Virus record (IMG/VR): IMGVR_UViG_3300037882_000973
Span: 1 to 33,663 of that record
Length of the DNA stretch: 33,663 nt
Strand: one strand, 5' to 3'
Origin: a virus
The notes under the pieces were generated by a model. That model was not told the DNA's origin. It did not search any database and was given only the letters and a program-made list of their open reading frames with translations. The stretch's first letter is position 1. Each line of letters begins with the position of its first letter. Shown here one piece after another: positions 2,212 through 32,371 of this stretch. The translations under genes and the position numbers were made by a program.

Positions 2212-5200
2212 TTATTTTTTATTTTTTTCTTTAATATATTGTAAAGCTTGGGATGTTCCTGGTACTCCAGAACTATACCCAATAATTGAGATAGCTAAAA
2301 GCATTGCGTTCTTTTCTTTAGTTGAAGCACGCTTAGATCTTTTATACCATTTCCATCTGTCCATTGTGTTTTGAAAAGCGCTTATTGTGGGCATAGGAAG
2401 AGAACCGTACTCTAAGGCGCTAACTACCTGACCAGCGAAAGGAACAGTTGTTGCCATATTCATAGCTGCTTCCTTATGAATATTCTCTTCTTTTTTATCA
2501 TCATCAAAATCACCATCAGCAAGAAAGTCTATCGCTTCTTTCCCTAACTTACGAATTCCTGCTTCAGCATAAGCAGCTATAATCATAAAGAAAGCCACTC
2601 TAGCAGCCCTCTTAGGGTCATTTTGTTTAATACCAAGACTGTACATATCATGTTTGATAACGCTCCAACGATTTATTACAAAAGATTGAAACTGTAAGAA
2701 CGCACGATTAAGAGAAATATTCCCTGTTAATGCTTCTCCACGATTAAATATTGCAGGCGTATCTTTAAACATGCCTGAAGACTGCGTTCTGCGTACCATT
2801 AATTGAGCGTAAGTGATGGCCTGTGCATCTGGATTTTTTAAATCTACTTCTAGCCCACGACTTCTTAAATTCTGTTCATACGCACCAAATCCAACACCAG
2901 CAGCAGCTAAAGCATCCAATGCCTTTAATGGCATGAATCCAACACGTTGCACCTTATTTAATACACCAGATGTTTCATAATCAAGATAGGAAGGATCGTC
3001 AGATATGCGGTTCCTAATTTCTGGAAAATTATTCTTAATAAATAAACGAGCCTCACGATCAGTAAGGATACGATTAAATCCACCAAAAGCATCTTTACCT
3101 ATTAGAGCAGCCCCATCCATCAAAGCTGTAGGCTGTATTAAAGCAGAGCTTAATTTGAACCCTAGTGTTGCTGCTCCTACATTCTTACGTGCTGCATCTA
3201 ACCATCGGAACCGTTTTTCTTGACTCTTACCTTTACGAGCTAATAAATCAATCCAATCCACAACAATCTTTTGTCCAATATCTCCCACAGCATCACGGTA
3301 CTTTGGACTCTTAGCTATCTCACCAAGGTATTTAATATCCTTACCCATTGTTACTAAATAAGAAGCATTCTCTATGTGCTGTTCAAATACTTGCATGGCG
3401 TTGATCTTCACCTTCTGATTTCCACCAGTACGCTTTTCAGTAAATCCTTTTTCAACATTTTTACGTTTTCCTTGGCCGAACTGTATAACCTTATCTCCAA
3501 ATCGTTCTTGCATTTCAGAATCACTCATAGCCTCAAAATCAGTCATAAATGGGAAGTAATTCTTAACTTTATCCAAAGGTTTGTTATACACAGTCCTCAT
3601 AGTATCAGACACAAAAGGACGCATTTCATCAAATTTCTTACGGATAGCAATATAAAACTCCATCTGCTTATCATTGAGGTTCACGCCTTCAACATCTGAC
3701 TGTTTATAACCAGTATCAATAAGCTTTTCCATGCCGCCTTCTTGCTCACGAACGGCATAGATACCAATTAATTCCATATCTAAGGCTTTAAGATCAAGCT
3801 TGTTAGCTAATGCGTGAATAGGCTTCTTAAAGGCATCTTTCATGTTAAGCCAGTTGCCATAAGCAGAATCTATCCGTGCTTTGAATATCCTGAAATTAGC
3901 ACCTAGATAAGCCTTACCACCGTCTAACATATCGAAGATAACGTCCATAGGCATGATGTTTAAATCCATCTTCTTTAGGTAGTCTGTGGCCTTGGCGTAA
4001 TCTTCCTTGAATTTACGGCTTAATCCTTGGGTTAATGATTCCTTAGTACCGGGCAATATTCGACCTGTTGGAGCGTCTGAATCGTATTTTTTGGAATCTA
4101 AAGAAATTTCATTAAGATCACGTTCTTTCTGTAAACGTTCAATCTCTCCACGAATACGAAGCTTGGACTTTCCTAATTCTCTAAGGCTTTGAATATCGGA
4201 TAGAATATTAAGAAGCTGTGCCGTCTCAACCTGTTCAATGGGTTTGGCTGATAAAAGTCGCATTTGATTTAATATTCGTTCAGGAAGGAATACATCTTCA
4301 CCTTTTTCCTTTTGTTCATTTAAAAATTCTTGGGTTTTCTTCAATGAAGAAATCGTACTTGCTTGACGTTTAACTACATCTATCTGACCTACAACCTCTT
4401 GAATTTTCTTAATATATTCAATGGCTATGTTCTTAGACTTACTAACATCCTTAAGTGTTTTCTTAATATCTTCAATAACCGACTTACGCTGAATTTCATC
4501 GGCTACTTCACGGATGCGGTAAATAGCCTTAACCGTGTCTTTCATTGTCTTAGCATCTGCCACTAATTTTATGAAACGTCCATGCTCGCCTTTAGGCAAT
4601 CCTTCTTTTACTAAACGAACAATCTCATTTTTAACAGTTTGCATGCTCTTAACGGCACGATCTCCTGCTTCTTTAGCAAATCTAACGCTTCTTTCCTTAT
4701 CTTCCGTAACCTTGGCAATTTCTCCTTCTATAATTGCTTTCATATCAGTAAACATAACCTTAGAAGCATTAGCTGCAGCACGAGCTTGACCTTCAAGAGA
4801 TCCTTTCAAGGCTTGCATCTGGGTGTAAATTTTAGAGCCTTCTTTCTTAACTTGTCCTGTTTGTTCTTGCACTACTTTATTTAATTTATTTGAAGAAATG
4901 GATTTGCTCAGTTTTAATTCAGTATCCTTAAATATGCGCATAGCTTCAGCCTTAGATACATTCTCTGGCAAAGAAGCAACAAACTTCCTTAAAGCGTCTG
5001 CTTGCTTTTTAGAATATATTATGAACCCTTCACCTTGAATTGCAGCTTGGAAAGTAAGTAATTTAACATCATCATTGATTCCTTGTTTAAATATAGGTTC
5101 ATTTGGTTTTATATCTGTTGTTTCATTAACTAGAGAATCATCTGGTTGTATTACTTCAGGATCAACCTGTTTTTCTTTAGATCTAATATTAGATAATGAT

Positions 5201-18913: not shown

Positions 18914-20521
18914 TTATTTTCGCATGATATCCTTCCAGTCACCTGAGCCAGTCGTAATAGGTTCTCTGTAAATATTGCTATCCTGTGGCTTGCGATTCAA
19001 AGGATCATAGTCCTGATCTGATACAACAGTCGGTATCGCTAACGGCACGGTTTGTGTCACCATTGGAAATACGGCTTTTAAATCCTCATCCGTTATGCGC
19101 GCTATGCAATCGAGCATATCATCATGAGCGCTGACCGGGAAATCACAATACTCTTCATCAATCAATACTTTTATAAAATCTACAGTCTTACCATCAACAC
19201 TATTAAACAATAACCGTGCAGGTGTATAAAACCGATGCTGTTCAAATATTGGAACTAACCGGCGTATGCGATCATTCTTAGGCATTGCGCCACCAAGCGG
19301 TGTTATTTCAAATCTATATCCTTCTTGCTCTTGAACATATTTAATATGCTCAATATCAGAATCCTTCCCGTATTTCTCATAACCAACAACACTAGGACGC
19401 CACTTACGATGAAATCCCATCAACGCCGTTGCCCTCTGTGTTAAATTTAAACGGTCACGAATCCCATCAACTAAATAATAATTCTTATCAGGAGCCAGTC
19501 CAATCACTACCATAACTGTGTAATCAGATGTTTTCTTCTTTTCTCCGGCGGGGTCAACTAATAGGTAGAAATTCCATCCTTCATAGTTTTTTAGTACGTG
19601 GTATGTCATTAACCAATCGACTTTGAAACCCATGAGTTTATCAGCGACTGGATTCTGAAGCATTTGGCAACCGTATACGTATTCGGCCATGTCTGTGCGC
19701 TTCTTAAGTAACGCTTCTTTAGACATTAATATTGATTTCCCCTCAACAGCAAGATCATCACGACCCTTATCTGTTGGATAATAATATCTTGGTTTAGCTG
19801 TACCACGTTCAATAATCGTTCTATATGTGTCGTTGGCATGATAACGTGTTCCGGTGAATCTTACCTTGCATGGCCTATTACCTTTACGACCTTGAAGATT
19901 ATAAGAAATCCCAATAGCCTCTGTCGTCTTTGCAATCATCTCGGGCGATGTCACAGACTCACGGACAACAACGTCATCATAGGACATGATCGAGAAGTGA
20001 GAAGCCGTAGGCTGGCCATCAACTAATCCCCACGCTTCAAACGTAGCCTCTTTAGGATTTGTCTTGCGCTTTAATATAATTCCACCATCTAAAGACCATC
20101 GCGGTGATTCTTTCCTTGGGTCTTGATATAAAATGTCAGGGAATAAATCTTTTAAGAATTTGTTATTTTCTAACTCAGAGGATATTTGAAAAAGGAATTT
20201 CTTAGCGATAGGACGCGTGTGGCTAAATATGCCTACCGTTTCTTCAGGGTCATTAAGAACATCTTGAACATTCTTACCAAATGTTATGATTGTTGATTTA
20301 TAAGCTTCACGAAACCAAAGATCAATGTGTCCATCAGGACTAGCTTCAACTTCTCGACATCTTTCGTATAGCCAAGGATGGTTTATGTCGGGTCTCTTAA
20401 AGCCTATCGTCAATAAAAAGAATAAATCAGTAAGGCACAATTCCTTCATCGCCTTAGTATCATCATCTTTTAATATTTTGAAATATAGTTCGTTTGACTG
20501 GTCGCGGGTGAGTTTAGCCAT
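18914..20521 (-). CDS. terL: terminase large subunit
   Basis: 535 residues. The ATPase domain has a variant Walker A (REAYKST, residues 71-77) and Walker B FSIMSYDDV (177-185). The RNase H-like nuclease domain has LLVDPAG (Asp323), GYEKYG (Glu382) and SAHDDMLD (Asp467/468), the three acidic positions that bind metal. The motor drives DNA into the procapsid through the portal encoded downstream. It overlaps the small subunit gene by 8 nt. The length is typical of podovirus large terminases, and no key residue is missing. Confidence 0.93.
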   Translation of the reverse strand: MAKLTRDQSNELYFKILKDDDTKAMKELCLTDLFFLLTIGFKRPDINHPWLYERCREVEASPDGHIDLWFREAYKSTIITFGKNVQDVLNDPEETVGIFSHTRPIAKKFLFQISSELENNKFLKDLFPDILYQDPRKESPRWSLDGGIILKRKTNPKEATFEAWGLVDGQPTASHFSIMSYDDVVVRESVTSPEMIAKTTEAIGISYNLQGRKGNRPCKVRFTGTRYHANDTYRTIIERGTAKPRYYYPTDKGRDDLAVEGKSILMSKEALLKKRTDMAEYVYGCQMLQNPVADKLMGFKVDWLMTYHVLKNYEGWNFYLLVDPAGEKKKTSDYTVMVVIGLAPDKNYYLVDGIRDRLNLTQRATALMGFHRKWRPSVVGYEKYGKDSDIEHIKYVQEQEGYRFEITPLGGAMPKNDRIRRLVPIFEQHRFYTPARLLFNSVDGKTVDFIKVLIDEEYCDFPVSAHDDMLDCIARITDEDLKAVFPMVTQTVPLAIPTVVSDQDYDPLNRKPQDSNIYREPITTGSGDWKDIMRK

Positions 20522-20891
20522 TCTTTATACGTTCAGCTTCGATCGTGGTTATCGTGGCATGGGTTATCTGTCTAATACGTTCTTCAAGGTCTATAGGGTC
20601 AACCTTAATCTTATTAGTCTCCGGTGCTTCAATAGGCACAACAATTGGCGTTAATTCTTTTAAATCACTAAAGAACTTAGCCGCCATCTCAGCGCCCCAC
20701 TGTTGACGTACAGTGTCAGGTTTTTCGACGATATCATATTGACCATGTTCATTTGGCTTATCACTCTTGCCAAACTTAGTCGCCACCAAAGCGTCAGCAA
20801 TTACACGCATATATTTATGACGCGTAACACCAGCTTTTTTTAATGCAGCTTCTTTTTGAGTCACGTTATTAATTTTGTCGATGTCGTCCAT
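20514..20891 (-). CDS. terS: terminase small subunit
   Basis: 125 residues directly before terL. The N-terminal helices (NNVTQKEAALKKAGVTRHKYMRVIADAL) have helix-turn-helix spacing. The middle (VEKPDTVRQQWGAEMAAKFFSDL) and C-terminal helices fit an oligomerising DNA-recognition subunit. The assignment relies on position and fold, since small terminases vary widely. No Shine-Dalgarno is visible before the ATG: a candidate promoter's -10 box ends 6 nt upstream, so the mRNA may be leaderless or nearly so. Confidence 0.75.
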   Translation of the reverse strand: MDDIDKINNVTQKEAALKKAGVTRHKYMRVIADALVATKFGKSDKPNEHGQYDIVEKPDTVRQQWGAEMAAKFFSDLKELTPIVVPIEAPETNKIKVDPIDLEERIRQITHATITTIEAERIKNG

Positions 20892-20897
20892 ATAGTT

Positions 20898-20926
20898 GTA
20901 TTAGCACTGATTTCTAATTTCTGCAA
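20898..20926 (-). promoter_or_regulatory. candidate promoter for the terminase/virion operon
   Basis: Minus strand: TTGCAG (20926-20921), 17-bp spacer, TAATAC (20903-20898), then 6 nt to the terS ATG. Transcription would begin at or next to the start codon. Confidence 0.45.
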
Positions 20927-20960
20927 TGTTTAATTATTTTTTTTAATCCCGCATATTTTC

Positions 20961-20989
20961 TTGACAAACATATAACATTATGTTATATT
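20961..20989 (+). promoter_or_regulatory. strong promoter with overlapping palindromic operator for the pilin operon
   Basis: TTGACA (20961-20966), a 17-bp spacer and TATATT (20984-20989). The perfect palindrome ATATAACATTATGTTATAT (20970-20988: 9-bp arms, one central base) fills the spacer and -10 box, so a dimeric repressor bound there would block RNA polymerase. The start site falls at about 20996. Confidence 0.8.
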
Positions 20990-20997
20990 ATGTTTAG

Positions 20998-21015
20998 ATC
21001 AGCAATCGGGCTGGT
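20998..21015 (+). promoter_or_regulatory. 5'-terminal mRNA hairpin, shared with 27110-27127
   Basis: ATCAGC and GCTGGT pair (one G-U) around AATCGG, starting within about 2 nt of the predicted transcript start. The same 5' arm and AATC loop start recur behind the promoter at 27074. 5'-terminal stems are known to protect mRNAs from decay, as in ompA; a protein-binding role is also possible. Confidence 0.5.
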
Positions 21016-21033
21016 TAAAACGGGGAGAAAAAA

Positions 21034-21258
21034 ATGATATATAAATTACCGGATGGATATATAGAGATTAGAGACTCAGGCAATACGTATTGCGGACGAA
21101 TAGCCCATAATATTAGGCACAAAGCCTCTCAAGTGCATAGAGATTGCAAGAAAGATATGTCTGAGATATTCCAACGAAACGTTGAGATTGATTATAACAA
21201 AACATTACTCTATATATTGAAAGAATTTATAAAGGAGATGCAAAATGAAAAAAAATAA
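21034..21258 (+). CDS. small hypothetical protein, first gene of the pilin operon (74 aa)
   Basis: 74 residues: MIYKLPDGYIEIRDSGNTYC, then GRIAHNIRHKASQVHRDCKK and an amphipathic C-terminal helix (YNKTLLYILKEFIKEMQNEKK). GGGGAG lies upstream of the ATG. No family is recognised. It is cotranscribed with, and overlaps by 14 nt, the prepilin-like gene, so the two proteins are made together. It has no membrane segment or signal. Confidence 0.65.
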   Translation: MIYKLPDGYIEIRDSGNTYCGRIAHNIRHKASQVHRDCKKDMSEIFQRNVEIDYNKTLLYILKEFIKEMQNEKK

Positions 21259-21646
21259 CCGAGGACTAAGTCTCACAGAAATAACAGTTGTACTGATAAT
21301 TATAGGGATACTGGCTGTAATATCCGTACCTGTTTTTGCCAATATCGACAGGGGCAAGGCAATCCCTGCGTTGTCCAAGATGAGGATGATTAAGGACGAT
21401 ATTATTATGTGCCTTACGGAGGGCGGGCAGTGTGACCAGTGGGGGCATTGGGTGGAGGCGGATGGGATTAAGCACTGGGTTGGGATTAGCTCTCCTGAAC
21501 CTGTGGATGGGCATTTTGACTACACGTATATTTTGGTAGGCGACGAGTATACGATTGTGGCCAACCTCAAAGATAGGCCAGCGGATAAATTAGTGTTAAC
21601 CACCTCAGGCTGTGATGGGTTTGGGGTGTTCCAAGGAGGGTGTTAA
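21245..21646 (+). CDS. type IV prepilin-like protein (pseudopilin)
   Basis: 133 residues. The N-terminus MKKNNRGLSLTEITVVLIII is a textbook prepilin: a short basic leader, Gly7 as the prepilin peptidase site, then +1 Leu, Glu at +5 (Glu12) and an uninterrupted hydrophobic helix to about residue 31. The rest is a globular head with Cys56, Cys63, Cys123 and Cys133; the last two could form the C-terminal disulphide loop typical of pilins. The second half is visibly richer in G than the surrounding DNA (21410-21560), suggesting recent capture. AGGAG precedes the start. A host peptidase would have to process it; it could join or poison host type IV pili or type II secretion pseudopili. Confidence 0.88.
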   Translation: MKKNNRGLSLTEITVVLIIIGILAVISVPVFANIDRGKAIPALSKMRMIKDDIIMCLTEGGQCDQWGHWVEADGIKHWVGISSPEPVDGHFDYTYILVGDEYTIVANLKDRPADKLVLTTSGCDGFGVFQGGC

Positions 21647-21687
21647 TAACCAATCCTACCCAATAGAAAGCGCTTCCTTTTGAACGA

Positions 21688-21715
21688 TTGACGATTAAAC
21701 CATAAACTATATACA
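21688..21715 (+). promoter_or_regulatory. candidate internal promoter
   Basis: TTGACG (21688-21693), 16-bp spacer, TATACA (21710-21715), about 20 nt before the next ATG. It lies in the 89-bp gap after the prepilin-like gene. Confidence 0.45.
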
Positions 21716-21735
21716 CCTAAAAGAAAGAGGCTAAA

Positions 21736-21918
21736 ATGAACCCTAAAAACGGAAAACTAGAAGGACGAAAAGGTATCGCTACAATTACCACCACAGACAA
21801 GGCTAATCTTGCTAAGGCGCGAGAGGCTCATATATTAGCCAAATTAAGCGGATTGACCCAAGAAGACATCTATATGCTTGGCTGTGACCATGTATTACGT
21901 GCCGCTAAATCTCCCTAA
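21736..21918 (+). CDS. small hypothetical protein (60 aa)
   Basis: 60 residues: MNPKNGKLEGRKGIATITTT, a helix DKANLAKAREAHILAKLSG, then LTQEDIYMLGCDHVLRAAKS. GAAAGAGG precedes the ATG. The helical second half resembles small regulatory or adaptor proteins but no family is recognised. It ends inside the last 14 nt of an opposing gene, so the plus and minus transcripts converge here. Confidence 0.6.
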   Translation: MNPKNGKLEGRKGIATITTTDKANLAKAREAHILAKLSGLTQEDIYMLGCDHVLRAAKSP

Positions 21919-22057
21919 CAATCTCTTCGCTACTCATTACATAACCATGTTTATCGTCCAATATTAACGGCGATGGCTTGGTTATGTAATGCGGCACACA
22001 ATACACCAGATCTCCCCATATGCACCAATACCAGTACGCTGCGGTCCCCTTAATCAT
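21905..22057 (-). CDS. small hypothetical protein (50 aa)
   Basis: ATG at 22057 with GAGG 7 nt upstream, overlapping the previous gene by 8 nt. The protein MIKGTAAYWYWCIWGDLVYC continues VPHYITKPSPLILDDKHGYV and ends MSSEEIVREI. Its N-terminus is rich in Trp/Tyr and the middle is a short beta-turn region. Part of its sequence is the 13-bp inverted repeat at 21935-21991. Function unknown. Confidence 0.55.
   Translation of the reverse strand: MIKGTAAYWYWCIWGDLVYCVPHYITKPSPLILDDKHGYVMSSEEIVREI
21935..21991. repeat. 13-bp perfect inverted repeat at the convergent junction
   Basis: CATTACATAACCA (21935-21947) and TGGTTATGTAATG (21979-21991) with 31 bp between. It lies inside the last gene of the replication transcript, next to the end of the opposing transcript. 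It could fold in RNA of either strand. There is no T-run, so it is not a simple terminator. Confidence 0.7.
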
Positions 22058-22178
22058 ATTTATCCTCTCTTTCTTTCAATAGGGTTAATACCTCATCTAA
22101 ATCACTAACCTTAACCGTTCCATCAATACTATTCATCATGAGAATTATTAATAGCTCGCGGGCTTTTTCAACACTCAT
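22050..22178 (-). CDS. small hypothetical protein (42 aa)
   Basis: ATG at 22178 with AAGGA upstream. The 42-residue protein starts MSVEKARELLIILMMNSIDG and ends VSDLDEVLTLLKEREDKYD: two short amphipathic helices separated by a turn. It is the first gene downstream of the iteron region, and its stop overlaps the next start. No family is recognised. Confidence 0.55.
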   Translation of the reverse strand: MSVEKARELLIILMMNSIDGTVKVSDLDEVLTLLKEREDKYD

Positions 22179-22195
22179 TTTATATCCTTTTTTTC

Positions 22196-22450
22196 TGTTA
22201 CATGTTACAGCCTGTTACAAAAGCGTTGTAACATCGCAACCCTTTTATTACCAAGGCTTTCCATAATAATAATAATAATGTTACAGAAATATATATATAT
22301 AAAGGGCTGTATTGTCATATGTAGGTATTTCCTCAATTGTACCTTTATATATGTTTTTTTTCTGTAACATGTAACATGTTGTAAACCGTTGGTATATAAT
22401 ACCCAAATTTTGAAATTCTGTTACAGGGCCTTGTAACATGAGCCGTAACA
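22196..22450. repeat. TGTTACA/TGTAACA iteron array, candidate replication origin
   Basis: A 275-bp gene-free stretch (22179-22453) holds at least nine exact copies of a 7-mer. Forward TGTTACA: 22196, 22203, 22213, 22279, 22419. Reverse TGTAACA: 22227, 22363, 22370, 22432. A CGTAACA variant lies at 22444. Two copies are back to back in forward (22196-22209) and two in reverse orientation (22363-22376), and two pairs face each other. Between them is very AT-rich DNA with an ATA-repeat run (22264-22278) and an AT run near 22290-22301, suited to unwinding. It lies immediately beside the D5-like ATPase gene. This is the expected build of an iteron origin; no initiator binding is shown. Confidence 0.7.
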
Positions 22451-22453
22451 GCC

Positions 22454-24148
22454 TTATTCAGCCCACATTTCGTTTAAAATTTCTTGTTTTTTAGGTATTT
22501 CTAAGACCAGAGATAAAGGTATTGTAACAGCTCTTTTTACCCCTGCAGAATTGTTATCGAAACGGACAGAAGTCTTAATTGCTCCTTTTAAACGGAGCAA
22601 AGTTTCAGTGCAAGGATAGTTCCAGTGAGTGTCTTTAATGGCTAATTTAATAAATTCAGATTGGTTGGCAATGGCAATGGTATCTTCTATTAAGCGGAAA
22701 CCGTTTCTGCGTAGAATATTATTAGAATCTTGGATTGATAGTTTGCTTGAAGTATTATACATACCATAAGCAGTTGCGATAAGTTCACGAATAGTACGAG
22801 AGACCCTATTATGATCGTCTAAAGTATAGTCCCTGGCTGAGTCCATAATATGATTTAAGAGGTCTTCGGAATGGCTTGCTGCGGCAATTTCCTTTTGTTC
22901 ATTCCACTCATGGGATTCTAGCCACTCAATAGCGTATTGAGGCGTTATGGCTTCATCGTGCGTCAAAGCGTAAACACCTGCCAACATCATAGACATTTGA
23001 TCGGATACACGGCGATTTCCGAAAACAGCTTCGCCATTATCCATAAATATACGCTGATTTTCTCTTATAATAGGAAGCATCTTTAGCCCCCTGGCTAGGA
23101 GTCCGGCCGCATAGGAGGGTGTTAAGAATTCGGAAAATGATAGAATTGCTTTGAATTTAGCTAAATTATCGGTTTCGAATGGCTTAAGGCGCAATATAGT
23201 GAAGCGTTGTTTGTCAGCTTCTTCCTTAATAGGAAGATCGATTGAGGATAAGGCGAAGCAAGAGCGTACATAGTATGAGTTTGCACCGCTTTGGCCAGCC
23301 GTTCCTTTAACAATTGGAGCGCCCTCTGGCGTTGAGGCTTGGCGGGCAAGAGAAATGATTGACTGTAGCCTTGCTCTTGACACAGGATCATTCGGCTCTG
23401 ATTCATCGAATATGATAGGGCGGGCATCGTTGTCTAAGAGTTGACGTATGCCTGCTTCTGTTGAGCTGCCTTGCACATTAAGAGGGATATCGCCAAGTAC
23501 CTTTGGGATAAGAGTATTAGTAACGTACGATTTTCCACTCCCAGCAGCGCCAAGCAAATATATATGAGAACGCCACAACATAGCACCACATAAAGGAGCT
23601 GTAAATAACCAACCTGCAAATAACATACCTATCTTGCTATCCTCCCAAGAAAGCATCTCGCATAATTTTATTAATTTAATAGATTCGTTTCGCTTTAAAG
23701 GGGATTCAAAAGTTAATGATAAGTCGTGCCTGATAGGATAAACAAAATTGGATCTGAAATCTTTAACACTTACATAAGTATCGCCAGTAAGAATTTTTGT
23801 GCCTAAATGAAATATGGGTTTACCATCATCTATCCAAGCTCCGCAACCACGGATTTTTTTGTCATTGAATATACCTCTAATTTCAGAGGCTCTCAGGATA
23901 AGCTCTGCAGCGCACTCTACGATATTCTGCACAGTTTTTGTATCAGCATCACCTAAGAATGAGGACCACCAAGAAAGAGGGGCAAGGCGTCTGATCTCGC
24001 CTTTAGGTATTTCGCTGGAACCAAAAGATATAAAATCTCCAGTCCTATTAATATAAGCATAAATACGCCCGTCGTAATTCCCAAGAATGGTGAACTCTTT
24101 ATTATCTAGGACGGTATTTATTTGCTGGTTTTTAACTTCAATATTCAT
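22454..24148 (-). CDS. D5/DUF927-like P-loop ATPase, probable replicative helicase or initiator
   Basis: 564 residues. Walker A GAAGSGKS (200-207) follows strand HIYLL. Walker B RPIIFDESE is at 243-251, a sensor-like strand SCFALSSI at about 296-303, and a candidate arginine finger in DKQRFTILRL (312-321). The N-terminal 190 residues lack a recognisable primase motif. The C-terminal part (440-564) has helical and winged-helix-like character. The layout fits superfamily 3/D5-type or DUF927-type ATPases that melt phage origins. The gene ends beside the iteron array and is driven by its own promoter and leader (24149-24341). Primase activity is not evident. Confidence 0.8.
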   Translation of the reverse strand: MNIEVKNQQINTVLDNKEFTILGNYDGRIYAYINRTGDFISFGSSEIPKGEIRRLAPLSWWSSFLGDADTKTVQNIVECAAELILRASEIRGIFNDKKIRGCGAWIDDGKPIFHLGTKILTGDTYVSVKDFRSNFVYPIRHDLSLTFESPLKRNESIKLIKLCEMLSWEDSKIGMLFAGWLFTAPLCGAMLWRSHIYLLGAAGSGKSYVTNTLIPKVLGDIPLNVQGSSTEAGIRQLLDNDARPIIFDESEPNDPVSRARLQSIISLARQASTPEGAPIVKGTAGQSGANSYYVRSCFALSSIDLPIKEEADKQRFTILRLKPFETDNLAKFKAILSFSEFLTPSYAAGLLARGLKMLPIIRENQRIFMDNGEAVFGNRRVSDQMSMMLAGVYALTHDEAITPQYAIEWLESHEWNEQKEIAAASHSEDLLNHIMDSARDYTLDDHNRVSRTIRELIATAYGMYNTSSKLSIQDSNNILRRNGFRLIEDTIAIANQSEFIKLAIKDTHWNYPCTETLLRLKGAIKTSVRFDNNSAGVKRAVTIPLSLVLEIPKKQEILNEMWAE

Positions 24149-24537: not shown

Positions 24538-25945
24538 ATATTTTCTTAGCTTGACGTTTTTGAAGTATAAGGTGGGCAAAACCCCAAGGATTTTTATATC
24601 CACGACGCTTGGCAAGATCGACAAGCTGTTCTCTAGTCTGCGCACGCCATAATTCAGACGCCTGATCTGTTTTAAAGACCTGTTCATTATGTTTACGCGT
24701 AGCTTCAATGTTTAATTCAGTAAGCTCTCCGTCAGTTTGTTTAACCTCACGATATTGGATTTCGAATATGTGCTGGCATTCAGGACACTCACGCTTAGCT
24801 GATGGGATACAAGCATAACATGATGGGCAGACCTTGACAGATAGGTTTGGTTCGGATGATTTTTTCTTGGTTATTCCAGATAATGTCCATTTACGGTCTT
24901 GGCATGGTAGGCCATGTGTAGCCGTTTGATTAGCATGATCTAATATGAGAGCGGGGTAATCCTTATAGCGAAGCACGCGTCCATTCATCTGAATGTTAAG
25001 GGATAAAGATTGCGTTGGTCTTAATAATACAATAGCTTCAATTGTTATATCTCGGTCAATTTGAAGGCTTAGATCGAATCCTGCTGTGAATAGGTAACAG
25101 TTTGAAATACAAAGAATTTCACCATCGGCTAATTTTCGAATCGTTTCCGCACGTTGTTCTTTGGTACATTCGCCGTCTAAATGCTCTGTCGATATACCTG
25201 CCTCGTTGAATTGTTTGGTAATGTCCTTGCTATGTTTAATACTTGTGCAGAAAATTATAGTGCGCTTGCCTTGAGCGTATTTTTTCCAATGGCTAATAGC
25301 ACATCCTGTAATTTGAGGTGTGTCCATGATGGCTTCTAGTTCTTCTTGAACGTAGTCGCCCATTCTTGTATGAGATTTACTTAGATCAGGTTTAGATGGT
25401 GCAAATATACGATAGTTTGATAAGTATTTATTATCTATAAGCCACTTGGTTGTCGGGCCTTCCACGATAGTATCGAAATATTCGCCTAAACCTTGTGAGT
25501 TAAGTTTCCAAGGACTAGCTGTTAGTCCAAGAATAAAACAGCCTTTTTCTTTGTAGAAATTAATCATCTTGGCCCATGACGGACCGCCGATGTGAGCCTC
25601 GTCGATAACTAACATGGTTGGAATGGGAGCTTTATGTAAGCGATTTTTAAGGGTATTGATTGAACATATCTGAATTGGGTATTTATTAGAATAGTATCCT
25701 GCTGCAATAAAGCCATACGGGATACTGAATTTATCGAAAGCCTTATGTGTTTGGGTTATAAGATCGCGGGTATGGACACAGAAAAACATCGAGTTTTTTT
25801 TATCTATAATTCGTTTTCCCATATAAGCGGATATAATTGTTTTTCCAAATCCTACGGGAGCGACTGCTAGGACAGATTTATGCGTTTTAAATGCAGTACG
25901 AATGTCTTCAATTAGTTTGTCTTGATGAGGTCGTAAATTCATCAT
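24503..25945 (-). CDS. superfamily 2 DEAH-box helicase with C-terminal zinc ribbon
   Basis: 480 residues. Motif I PVGFGKT (30-36), motif II DEAH (115-118), motif III TAS (142-144), motif V region around ISNCYLFTAGFD (280-291), and motif VI QMNGRVLR (319-326) with the expected arginines. A CPSC...CPEC zinc ribbon is at 373-390. This is the layout of phage SF2 helicases in the Rad3/UvsW/RecG-like range that remodel forks or recombination intermediates; replication or recombination support is expected. Its start overlaps the upstream ParB-N-like gene (ATGATGA). Confidence 0.9.
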   Translation of the reverse strand: MMNLRPHQDKLIEDIRTAFKTHKSVLAVAPVGFGKTIISAYMGKRIIDKKNSMFFCVHTRDLITQTHKAFDKFSIPYGFIAAGYYSNKYPIQICSINTLKNRLHKAPIPTMLVIDEAHIGGPSWAKMINFYKEKGCFILGLTASPWKLNSQGLGEYFDTIVEGPTTKWLIDNKYLSNYRIFAPSKPDLSKSHTRMGDYVQEELEAIMDTPQITGCAISHWKKYAQGKRTIIFCTSIKHSKDITKQFNEAGISTEHLDGECTKEQRAETIRKLADGEILCISNCYLFTAGFDLSLQIDRDITIEAIVLLRPTQSLSLNIQMNGRVLRYKDYPALILDHANQTATHGLPCQDRKWTLSGITKKKSSEPNLSVKVCPSCYACIPSAKRECPECQHIFEIQYREVKQTDGELTELNIEATRKHNEQVFKTDQASELWRAQTREQLVDLAKRRGYKNPWGFAHLILQKRQAKKIYENNNALHTQV

Positions 25946-26199
25946 TTCTTAAGCAACTTTTTTTTATCTACAATTTCTCTATATTTCCAATAAGCAACGC
26001 TATTAGGATTATAGTCATTAGCTTGGACATCTTCATTTTCTACCCACAGAACACAGTCAACAGGTTCGCTTGCGAAAGGACTGATTTCGTGTAATTGCTT
26101 TTTTATTTCGTTAATTAGTTTTATTTTTTGTTTTATTGGGAGCTTTTTAATTTCCTTTTTAAAGATACGATCAATTTTGTCTAAAGTTCTATCTTCCAT
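25942..26199 (-). CDS. ParB N-terminal-like fragment protein (85 aa)
   Basis: 85 residues from the ATG at 26199 (AGGAG 4 nt upstream; the in-frame GTG at 26220 lies in the leader stem and lacks a ribosome site). After a helical N-terminus, the segment EPVDCVLWVENEDVQANDYNPNSVA closely follows the start of phage ParB/sulfiredoxin-like domains (VLWV..EDVQ.NDYNPN.VA). The usual continuation (PEM.LL..SI..DG) is absent. The protein instead ends YWKYREIVDKKKLLKK 16 residues later. It may be a natural mini-protein or a deletion derivative. It is the first gene after leader A and is coupled to the helicase. Confidence 0.7.
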   Translation of the reverse strand: MEDRTLDKIDRIFKKEIKKLPIKQKIKLINEIKKQLHEISPFASEPVDCVLWVENEDVQANDYNPNSVAYWKYREIVDKKKLLKK

Positions 26200-26266
26200 A
26201 ATTCTCCTAAAAATACCCACAGAACCTCGGATTGAGGTTTTTATCGACTTGGGATCAAACTGTGGG
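26200..26266 (-). promoter_or_regulatory. structured 5' leader A
   Basis: Minus-strand RNA: CCCACAG (26266-26260) pairs with CUGUGGG (26222-26216). Directly inside is the AACCUC/GAGGUU hairpin (26239-26223, loop AAUCC). The remaining loop holds UGAUCCCA-A-GUC (26257-26246), complementary to the 5' end of RNA A. Confidence 0.5.
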
Positions 26267-26854: not shown

Positions 26855-26883
26855 ATATTACCATATATTTCTTGACAAGTCAA
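26855..26883 (-). promoter_or_regulatory. leftward promoter of the divergent control region
   Basis: Minus strand: TTGACT (26883-26878), 17-bp spacer, TAATAT (26860-26855), then a 20-nt leader to the AGGAGG ATG of the replication operon. Its -35 box directly abuts that of the rightward promoter. Confidence 0.75.
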
Positions 26884-26900
26884 TAATCATCTGTTATGCT
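26872..26900 (+). promoter_or_regulatory. rightward promoter of the divergent control region
   Basis: TTGACA (26872-26877), 17-bp spacer, TATGCT (26895-26900), then 6 nt to ATG. TTGAC-AA-GTCAA (26872-26883) is a small palindrome covering both -35 boxes, a likely operator core. Confidence 0.75.
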
Positions 26901-26906
26901 TCAATC

Positions 26907-27077
26907 ATGAAAAAACAAAAAAATAAACCACGATACCCAATTGGGACAGCAGTTAATGTTTCCGTTTTTAAACGCCTAGAAATTGTTAGAGGATTCGGTT
27001 ACACAATACCGGAACTATTAGAGATGGGAATAGCTGCTGCTGAAAAAATAGTTATCAAAGATATAAAACAGTCTTGA
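26907..27077 (+). CDS. small ribbon-helix-helix-like protein on a leaderless mRNA, candidate repressor (56 aa)
   Basis: A 56-residue gene: MKKQKNKPRYPIGTAVNVSV, FKRLEIVRGFGYTIPELLEM, then GIAAAEKIVIKDIKQS. A basic tail, a VNVSV strand and two helices split by GYT fit the ribbon-helix-helix fold (RHH/CopG type). There is no Shine-Dalgarno. The predicted transcription start coincides with the ATG, as for the lambda cI message from PRM. It is transcribed divergently from the replication operon across a shared operator-like site, the classic place for an autoregulated phage repressor. Its stop overlaps the -35 box of the next promoter. Confidence 0.7.
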   Translation: MKKQKNKPRYPIGTAVNVSVFKRLEIVRGFGYTIPELLEMGIAAAEKIVIKDIKQS

Positions 27078-27101
27078 CAACACAAGAATATTTGCTATAC
27101 T
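27074..27101 (+). promoter_or_regulatory. promoter of the rightward early operon
   Basis: TTGACA (27074-27079), 16-bp spacer, TATACT (27096-27101). The TTGA of the -35 overlaps the repressor-like gene's stop. TCTTG/CAAGA arms flank it (27072-27087). TCTTGACAA is common to the promoters at 20961, 26872 and 27074. Confidence 0.75.
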
Positions 27102-27109
27102 AAAAACAT

Positions 27110-27127
27110 ATCAGCAATCAAGCTGAT
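27110..27127 (+). promoter_or_regulatory. 5'-terminal mRNA hairpin, copy 2
   Basis: ATCAGC-AATCAA-GCTGAT, a perfect 6-bp stem beginning about 2 nt after the predicted start. Matches the hairpin at 20998-21015. Confidence 0.55.
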
Positions 27128-27146
27128 TAATAAAAAGGAGCCGACC

Positions 27147-30768: not shown

Positions 30769-32217
30769 TTGGAATACTTAATAATCGTAGCTTTAAATTT
30801 AATCCTCTATTACCGCACAGTCAAATTCTTCTTAGTAGCCGACGACCTATCATGGTACTTAAAACAGCCAGGACTATGGAAATTCAAGCATATAGATAGC
30901 CCAAAACATTTCTTTATGTGGCTTAAGCAACGTCTGTACGGTGGTTTTACGTTTGGACAGAACGTCAAGCTAGAGCATTTTATTACGACTATCATTCATA
31001 CAATCGTTTCGGTTATGATTTACCACGCGTTCGGAGCTAACCAGATATCGTTCTGGGCCGCGATTTTATATTCATGTAATCCGATAAATAACCAGACATC
31101 TGTGTGGCTTAACGGTCGTAGGTATAGCATTAATATTATTCTTGTCCTAGCCATTGTTATGCTTATAGAGGTTAAATTCGGCTGGGCTTACGCTTTAGGA
31201 TTATACGCCTTCACAGCGGTTTTCCACATGACAGCGGTATTCGCTCCAGTATTATTATTATGGAAGTATCCATTAATAGGTTTAGCTATAGCTGTTTTAG
31301 TGGTATTGAATTTAAAGAAATTTATTAGATTGCTTAATGAACGTCTTAAAAAGATCCATGACTTAGATCGGAGAAACTTTACTCCACAGCGTTTAATTGT
31401 CATAGTTAAAACATACGGTTATTATTTCTTCAAAATGTTCTTTCCAGGCGTATGTGCCATGACATATCCAACGCTTCATTTTTGGGGACAAACTAAAGAA
31501 GGGAATAAAGATGCGTATTCGTTTAATATTGAGTTCTATAAAGGTTGCTTGGCTTTCGTTATATGTATTGGCATTATTTCTTATTTTATTAATGTGCAAG
31601 ATTATAGAATACTGTGCTTCTGGGTTTTTATGTGCTTATCGCTATTGCAATGGTGTCAAATCATAGCCATATTCCAAGACTTAGCAGATCGGTACGCTGG
31701 CATGGCTACGGTTTTCGGCATGTTTTTTCTGTCTTTTTTTGTTCATACCTACGCCGGACAGTACGCAACAGCCATATTAGGAGTGTTCGCAGGGTACTAT
31801 ATCGCCATGCTATTCATAGTCATGCGAATGTACCGTAGCGAAGGAGCTAGATGGGAATACCAAAGACACTGGTTCCCTCAATTACCAGCACCTTTAAAGT
31901 TTGAGAACGAATATTTAATACATGATGCTAAGGATTTTCCTCGAGCCTGGGTATTAATTCAAGATTATCTAAAACATGGTGGGCGTGATTTTAATATTCT
32001 ATTTCAAGCGGCTAAATGCCACCAAGCTGTAGGTCGTTATGAGGAAGCTAAGAAATTCGCTATGGAAGCAGCTAAGAACTATCTTCTATATAAAGAGAAC
32101 ATCCAGAAGAAATTAGTTGAAGATTTTTTGGTACATTGTAGACCTCCTAGCGGAATGATTATTGGAGAAAAAAGCAGACAAGTTAAGAGATATGAAGAAC
32201 GTAAGAACAAAAAATAG
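30769..32217 (+). CDS. TMTC-like GT-C membrane glycosyltransferase with C-terminal TPR
   Basis: 482 residues from a TTG start with CGGAGG 6 nt upstream, directly after the cold-shock gene. About 8-11 transmembrane helices in residues 1-370. After the first helix is the Asp pair VADDLSWY (Asp25-Asp26), the catalytic position of GT-C enzymes. HFITTIIH (70-77), ILYSCNPINNQTSVWLNGRR (99-118) and FHMTAVFAPVLLLW (152-165) follow the order of TMTC-type (HXXN..LH, LFAxHPxxxEAVAWxSGR, SKExAVxLPxxLL) proteins. Residues about 405-440 make one TPR-like helix pair (NILFQAAKCHQAVGRYEEAK). Such enzymes move lipid-linked sugars onto proteins or glycans outside the cytoplasm. Very unusual for a podophage. Substrate unknown. 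Confidence 0.75.
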   Translation: MEYLIIVALNLILYYRTVKFFLVADDLSWYLKQPGLWKFKHIDSPKHFFMWLKQRLYGGFTFGQNVKLEHFITTIIHTIVSVMIYHAFGANQISFWAAILYSCNPINNQTSVWLNGRRYSINIILVLAIVMLIEVKFGWAYALGLYAFTAVFHMTAVFAPVLLLWKYPLIGLAIAVLVVLNLKKFIRLLNERLKKIHDLDRRNFTPQRLIVIVKTYGYYFFKMFFPGVCAMTYPTLHFWGQTKEGNKDAYSFNIEFYKGCLAFVICIGIISYFINVQDYRILCFWVFMCLSLLQWCQIIAIFQDLADRYAGMATVFGMFFLSFFVHTYAGQYATAILGVFAGYYIAMLFIVMRMYRSEGARWEYQRHWFPQLPAPLKFENEYLIHDAKDFPRAWVLIQDYLKHGGRDFNILFQAAKCHQAVGRYEEAKKFAMEAAKNYLLYKENIQKKLVEDFLVHCRPPSGMIIGEKSRQVKRYEERKNKK

Positions 32218-32227
32218 GGAAACAGAT

Positions 32228-32371
32228 ATGCCAACGATACCAGAGGGGAAAACAGTTTTAGTTGTACATATAAGAAAAGATTTGCATTTAAATTTTAAGA
32301 TGTGGTGTGTAAAAAATAAGAAGACTATCCAAAGCGTAATTGAAGAGCTGATTGAAAAGAAGATTAAATAA
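32228..32371 (+). CDS. 47-aa ribbon-helix-helix-like protein
   Basis: Start taken at 32228 with GGGA upstream; a longer in-frame start at 32162 lies within the GT-C gene and lacks a site. MPTIPEGKTVLVVHIRKDLH, then LNFKMWCVKNKKTIQSVIEE and LIEKKIK: a strand (VLVVHI) then two helices, the pattern of ribbon-helix-helix or Arc-type proteins (HIRKDLHLNFKMWCVKNKKTIQSVI). Probably a small DNA-binding regulator or antitoxin-like protein. Confidence 0.65.
   Translation: MPTIPEGKTVLVVHIRKDLHLNFKMWCVKNKKTIQSVIEELIEKKIK

Follow-up and report, generated by a model that had tools for sequence, protein, structure and literature searches.

Pilins encoded by phages are already known and have been annotated occasionally. 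A published example is gp11 of Pseudomonas phage MD8, a 'PAK pilin-like protein' with homologues in JBD68 and PAN70 (PMC8508860). Other phage proteins turn off the type IV pili of their hosts and thereby exclude other phages. These inhibitors, none of which is described as a prepilin, include D3112 gp05 (Tip), DMS3 Aqs1 and Pf4 proteins; the first two act by inactivating PilB, the assembly ATPase (PMC11436027). Pilus dynamics can also depend on the subunits themselves, as in V. cholerae, where the ratio of minor to major pilin is by itself enough to change them (PMC13249403). The literature that we searched contained no functional test of a phage-borne pilin or of its effect on host pili. Here, we describe a phage-borne prepilin that has an unusual head, a phage-type regulated promoter and informative regulation.

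The analyzed window, that is, the whole stretch of DNA under study, is a 33,663-base IMG/VR virus record. Its gene content is that of a podovirus-like tailed phage, with terminase, head-tail adaptor, major head protein, protease and tail proteins in addition to a Bbp19-like protein, helicase, primase, RecE-like exonuclease and RecT. Between two minus-strand blocks lies a plus-strand cassette of three open reading frames (ORFs; 74, 133 and 60 aa), from which the terminase and structural operon diverges and toward which the primase operon converges. The 133-aa prepilin-like protein (21245–21646, plus strand) is flanked by two genes without relatives, ORF74 (21034–21258, plus strand), the 3′ end of which shares 14 nt with the beginning of the pilin gene, and ORF60 (21736–21918, plus strand), the last of the cassette. 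The neighboring blocks contain the terminase large subunit (18914–20521, minus strand; phrog_38, E = 3e-50) and a primase-like protein (22454–24148, minus strand; phrog_35358, E = 4e-93). ORF125 (20514–20891, minus strand), located upstream of the large subunit gene and divergent from the cassette, is a putative small terminase by position; profile searches including PHROGs returned no significant family match, so that the earlier placement of the pilin gene 'next to terS' is a positional statement. PADLOC detected no defense families in the cassette.

Several further features of the window were recorded. Beside the primase gene, positions 22196–22529 hold ten copies of TGTTACA/TGTAACA in 334 bases (13 observed versus 4.4 expected in the whole window), a cluster that probably represents replication iterons or operators. 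A ParB-like fragment (25942–26220; phrog_2159) and a ribbon-helix-helix protein (32162–32371; PF21432, ParG-like) were identified, while no integrase was recognized among the window proteins scanned, making plasmid-like lysogeny possible. A host assignment through the terminase was rejected, as the best identity (61%, in Bdellovibrionaceae MAGs) was accompanied by values of 50–60% across many phyla.

Translation of the pilin gene, which is preceded by a Shine-Dalgarno sequence (AAGGAG, 21232–21237, plus strand) 7 nt upstream of the ATG, begins with MKKNNRGLSLTEITVVLIIIGILAVISVPVF. The N terminus, MKKNNRG/LSLTEITVVLIIIGILAVISVPVF, comprises a putative class III leader peptide (21245–21265, plus strand) for which profile matches and motif predict cleavage after G7, placing G7 at −1, L8 at +1, E12 at +5 and P29 at +22. 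Like type IV prepilins, the protein thus combines a basic leader ending in Gly, a hydrophobic first helix with Pro at +22, and Glu at +5. Neither E12 nor P29 varies across alignments with cellular and viral pilins. An earlier note, made from the DNA letters alone, had reported this frame, a class III signal (Gly7, Leu+1, Glu+5) and four cysteines. All were borne out by the translation, with Cys residues at positions 56, 63, 123 and 133, and the pilin profile search that it had proposed returned matches above the curated cut-offs for PF07963 (N_methyl; 24.1 versus 21.2 bits, E = 2.5e-5) and TIGR02532 (22.4 versus 16.3). Scores remained below the cut-offs for full-length matches to the models GspG (equivalog; 26 versus 88.85 bits), PilA Myxo (equivalog; 21.9 versus 400) and PRK10574 (21 versus 138). 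When related phage and host loci totaling 2.5 Mb were scanned loosely for the motif, no further convincing prepilin emerged, which argues against a chance occurrence. At the other end of the protein, a Cys123/Cys133 pair could close a C-terminal loop resembling the D-region of type IVa pilins.

A structure model that drew on aligned pilins of cells and viruses reached medium confidence (pLDDT 63) and contains a helix at residues 10–58 followed by a four-stranded antiparallel sheet; a single-sequence model of low confidence (pLDDT 49) was left out of the fold search. The hydrophobic helix, noticed earlier to about residue 31, extends in this medium-confidence model to about residue 58. The top neighbors in VIA-align were pseudopilins of type II secretion systems, with weak scores for EpsI:EpsJ (2ret; Z 5.0, r.m.s.d. 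3.9 over 75 residues) and GspI (3ci0; Z 4.8, r.m.s.d. 3.9 over 75 residues). The pseudopilins GspI/EpsI and GspG share the N-terminal motif of the 133-aa protein and are its best, if weak, structural neighbors. Foldseek searches of the same model against PDB and BFVD gave no match with E < 0.001. Because of the low Z values and an alignment composed of pilins, we regard the model as consistent with a pilin fold rather than as proof of it.

Comparison to phage-borne pilins revealed a shared N terminus joined to different heads. MD8 gp11 (KX198612) is likewise a prepilin that has a class III signal and is encoded by a tailed phage, but its head is longer and unrelated, and only residues 1–37 align (38% identity). 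Moreover, the MD8 gene lies within the tail gene cluster beside transposases, whereas the window pilin belongs to an early-type cassette. The N-terminal prepilin stretch is also shared with PHROG 3433 (pilin; moron category) and PHROGs 27437, 11596 and 10597 (E values from 0.0036 to 3e-8), with matches that stop at residue 62 at most and do not include the head. Homology to PHROG 3433 or to the MD8-type phage pilin is thus confined to the N terminus. Searches for whole-protein relatives in viral contigs, GenBank phages, plasmids and GTDB genomes found none of full length, and a head-only search in five phylum samples totaling 1,425 genomes, conducted without a positive control, gave nothing beyond chance. 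The head-only matches (E = 4e-4 or weaker, 36–72 residues) lay in frames of other length or with stops and were treated as chance.

A scan of IMG/VR yielded 30 prepilin loci, some of them possibly host flanks of proviruses. Clear phage neighbors in this set were an RNA polymerase (contig L248), an integrase (L229), a primase (L234), a CI-like repressor (L240) and tail-assembly-like genes (L224). The prepilins in L238/L248, L229, L232–L234, L240 and L224 resemble the window pilin in lying beside phage-type genes, and their similarity to it is mainly N-terminal. The search for viral homologues suggested earlier produced N-terminus-sharing prepilins among phage genes but no full-length relatives. 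Together with MD8 gp11 and the PHROGs pilin family, these loci show that the premise of the earlier note that pilins are host structures was too strong. Within the set, L238 (3995–4525) and L248 (1071–1649) are related low-GC viral contigs encoding a prepilin of 176–192 aa, which in L248 precedes the phage RNA polymerase gene as another early-type pilin. A nearly identical prepilin occurs near position 4001 in three viral contigs (L232, L233 and L234) and in L234 lies upstream of a D5-type primase gene.

The pilin gene stands out from its surroundings in composition. Its GC content is 0.47 and its GC3 0.51, as compared to GC3 values of 0.20–0.41 for the long phage genes, and its codon-usage z value of −5.3 is the lowest among the window genes tested, upholding the composition break that had been noticed against the neighbors. 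PF07963 searches of 91 related viral records, many of which are fragments, detected no prepilin, and relatives of ORF74, the pilin and ORF60 were sought in related phage loci without result. L009, among the closest relatives for which the upstream region is available, likewise has divergent genes ahead of its terminase, but they are different ones. As expected for a moron, the cassette has its own promoter, lies between phage operons in opposite orientation, deviates in composition and lacks a counterpart in related phages; a consensus scan of 20800–22600 located no terminator after it. Foreign composition, absence from related phages and the different genes at the corresponding position in L009 make the pilin cassette look like a moron of recent capture.

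Regulatory elements link this captured gene to the phage. Upstream of ORF74, a promoter with the configuration TTGACA-17-TATATT and a TG extended −10 element (20961–20989, plus strand) showed 11/12 matches, the best in the region. A perfect 19-nt palindrome, ATATAACATTATGTTATAT (20970–20988, plus strand; 9-bp arms, 1-nt center), spans the spacer and −10 element and is a candidate operator, rendering plausible the operator-controlled promoter proposed earlier. About three palindromes with arms of at least 8 bp are expected by chance in the window, so its position counts more than its existence, and further copies within the window were not in excess over chance. Starting 8 nt past the −10 element is a 5′ leader hairpin, ATCAGCAATCGGGCTGGTTA (20998–21017, plus strand; z −3.6). 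A similar module precedes the RecE/RecT operon (27074–27129, plus strand), where TTGACA-16-TATACT is followed after 8 nt by the hairpin ATCAGCAATCAAGCTGATTA. The two loci thus have in common, at equal spacing, an extended −10 element, 8 nt and the hairpin ATCAGCAATCNNGCTGRTTA. Both hairpins are at the same distance from the −10 element and identical in 17/20 bases; among nearly 20,000 random pairs, not one attained 17. An A-U to G-U change between the two hairpins leaves the stem intact. Judging from the −10 position, the 5′ ends of the transcripts of the cassette and of the RecE/RecT operon would coincide with the first bases of the hairpin or lie slightly upstream of it. The matching module ties the cassette to the phage's own regulation, and from promoter similarity alone we infer that the pilin cassette is probably expressed early. 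The palindrome, found at the pilin but not at the RecE/RecT promoter, may add separate control. The sequence lends good support to a captured, phage-borne prepilin controlled by a phage-type promoter.

The leader hairpin was also encountered elsewhere. Its core, CAGC-AATCNN-GCTG, occurs directly past a TTGACA promoter in other viral contigs (L257 at 1348; L258 at ~2305, L259 at ~2008 and L052 at ~459, the latter three on the minus strand), and the right arm was at least partly complementary in 3/3 contigs that had been retrieved through the promoter together with the left arm. The hairpin is possibly a general leader element of phages; an Rfam search of the window gave no match. A third TTGACA promoter with an extended −10 element (26870–26909) ends a few bases 5′ of the ATG of a 56-aa ORF, the mRNA of which may consequently be leaderless and the product of which is a possible small regulator.

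From these data, the following scenario emerges. A pilin gene from a bacterium would have come to lie downstream of a promoter and leader of the early type that the phage itself uses and, after infection, would be transcribed early by host RNA polymerase. The prepilin would enter the inner membrane, where host PilD would remove MKKNNRG; as a prepilin peptidase is absent from the phage record, the pilin would depend on that of the host. The mature subunit would then join or compete in the subunit pool of the host type IV pilus or of a type II/competence pseudopilus. Given its foreign head and the dependence of pilus dynamics on subunit ratios, a strong dose of it would leave the filament blocked, shortened or altered, most plausibly with the result that pilus-dependent phages are kept off the infected cell or lysogen. 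We consider it likely that the protein is processed as a prepilin and acts on a type IV filament of the host, and the complete account, with an early, captured pilin that is processed by PilD and perturbs that filament, is the best overall explanation, favored by a modest measure. Exclusion of other phages as the benefit is a reasonable inference from the V. cholerae pilin ratio (PMC13249403) and the phage proteins that turn pili off (PMC11436027), but we advance it tentatively. The outcome, an altered host pilus and the exclusion of other phages, would be shared with the known type IV pilus inhibitors. A yet more specific version, in which the early, PilD-processed subunit is a decoy pilin with a foreign head that, within minutes of infection, poisons or recoats the host filament, appears possible but doubtful.

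Rather unlikely, in our view, is a recently captured passenger without a selected function in the phage, as might be suggested by codon usage that is the most foreign in the window and by the absence of the gene from all relatives examined; against it speak an uninterrupted frame with a good ribosome-binding site, the coupling of the gene to ORF74, the phage-like promoter-leader module and the recurrence of prepilins across unrelated phages. The helix could also be a mere membrane anchor for a head acting in the periplasm, for example against DNA entry of a second phage in an Imm/SieA-like manner and without any filament. Blocked DNA entry (SieA) is a known mode of superinfection exclusion (PMC11436027) and the head shows no relationship to any sampled pilin, but the leader, E+5 and P+22 have all been retained, for which a plain anchor would have no use, and we judge this reading unlikely. 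A virion or attachment component, for which the MD8 pilin gene among tail genes and the L224 prepilin adjoining tail-assembly-like genes offer precedents, is highly improbable given a strand opposite to that of the structural genes, an early-type promoter and the lack of a pilin in structural relatives. An assembly chimera or bacterial contamination, raised in the earlier note and compatible with the composition break within the pilin gene and the lack of a pilin in related phages, is hardly credible, because phage genes lie to either side of the cassette, the end of ORF74 runs into the pilin gene and the promoter and leader recur at 27074–27129 in the RecE/RecT operon, so that a chimera would require two breakpoints plus a coincidence.

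The favored reading, a captured early pilin that perturbs a host filament, raises the question of whether phages use false pilus subunits to alter or close pili on which other phages depend. If true, pilus-based exclusion would have a third route, in addition to inhibitors of the ATPase and control of expression. Should the decoy version hold, the pilus receptor would be closed in a subunit-based, dominant-negative manner distinct from that of PilB inhibitors, and the window pilin would belong to a wider group of phage-borne prepilins.
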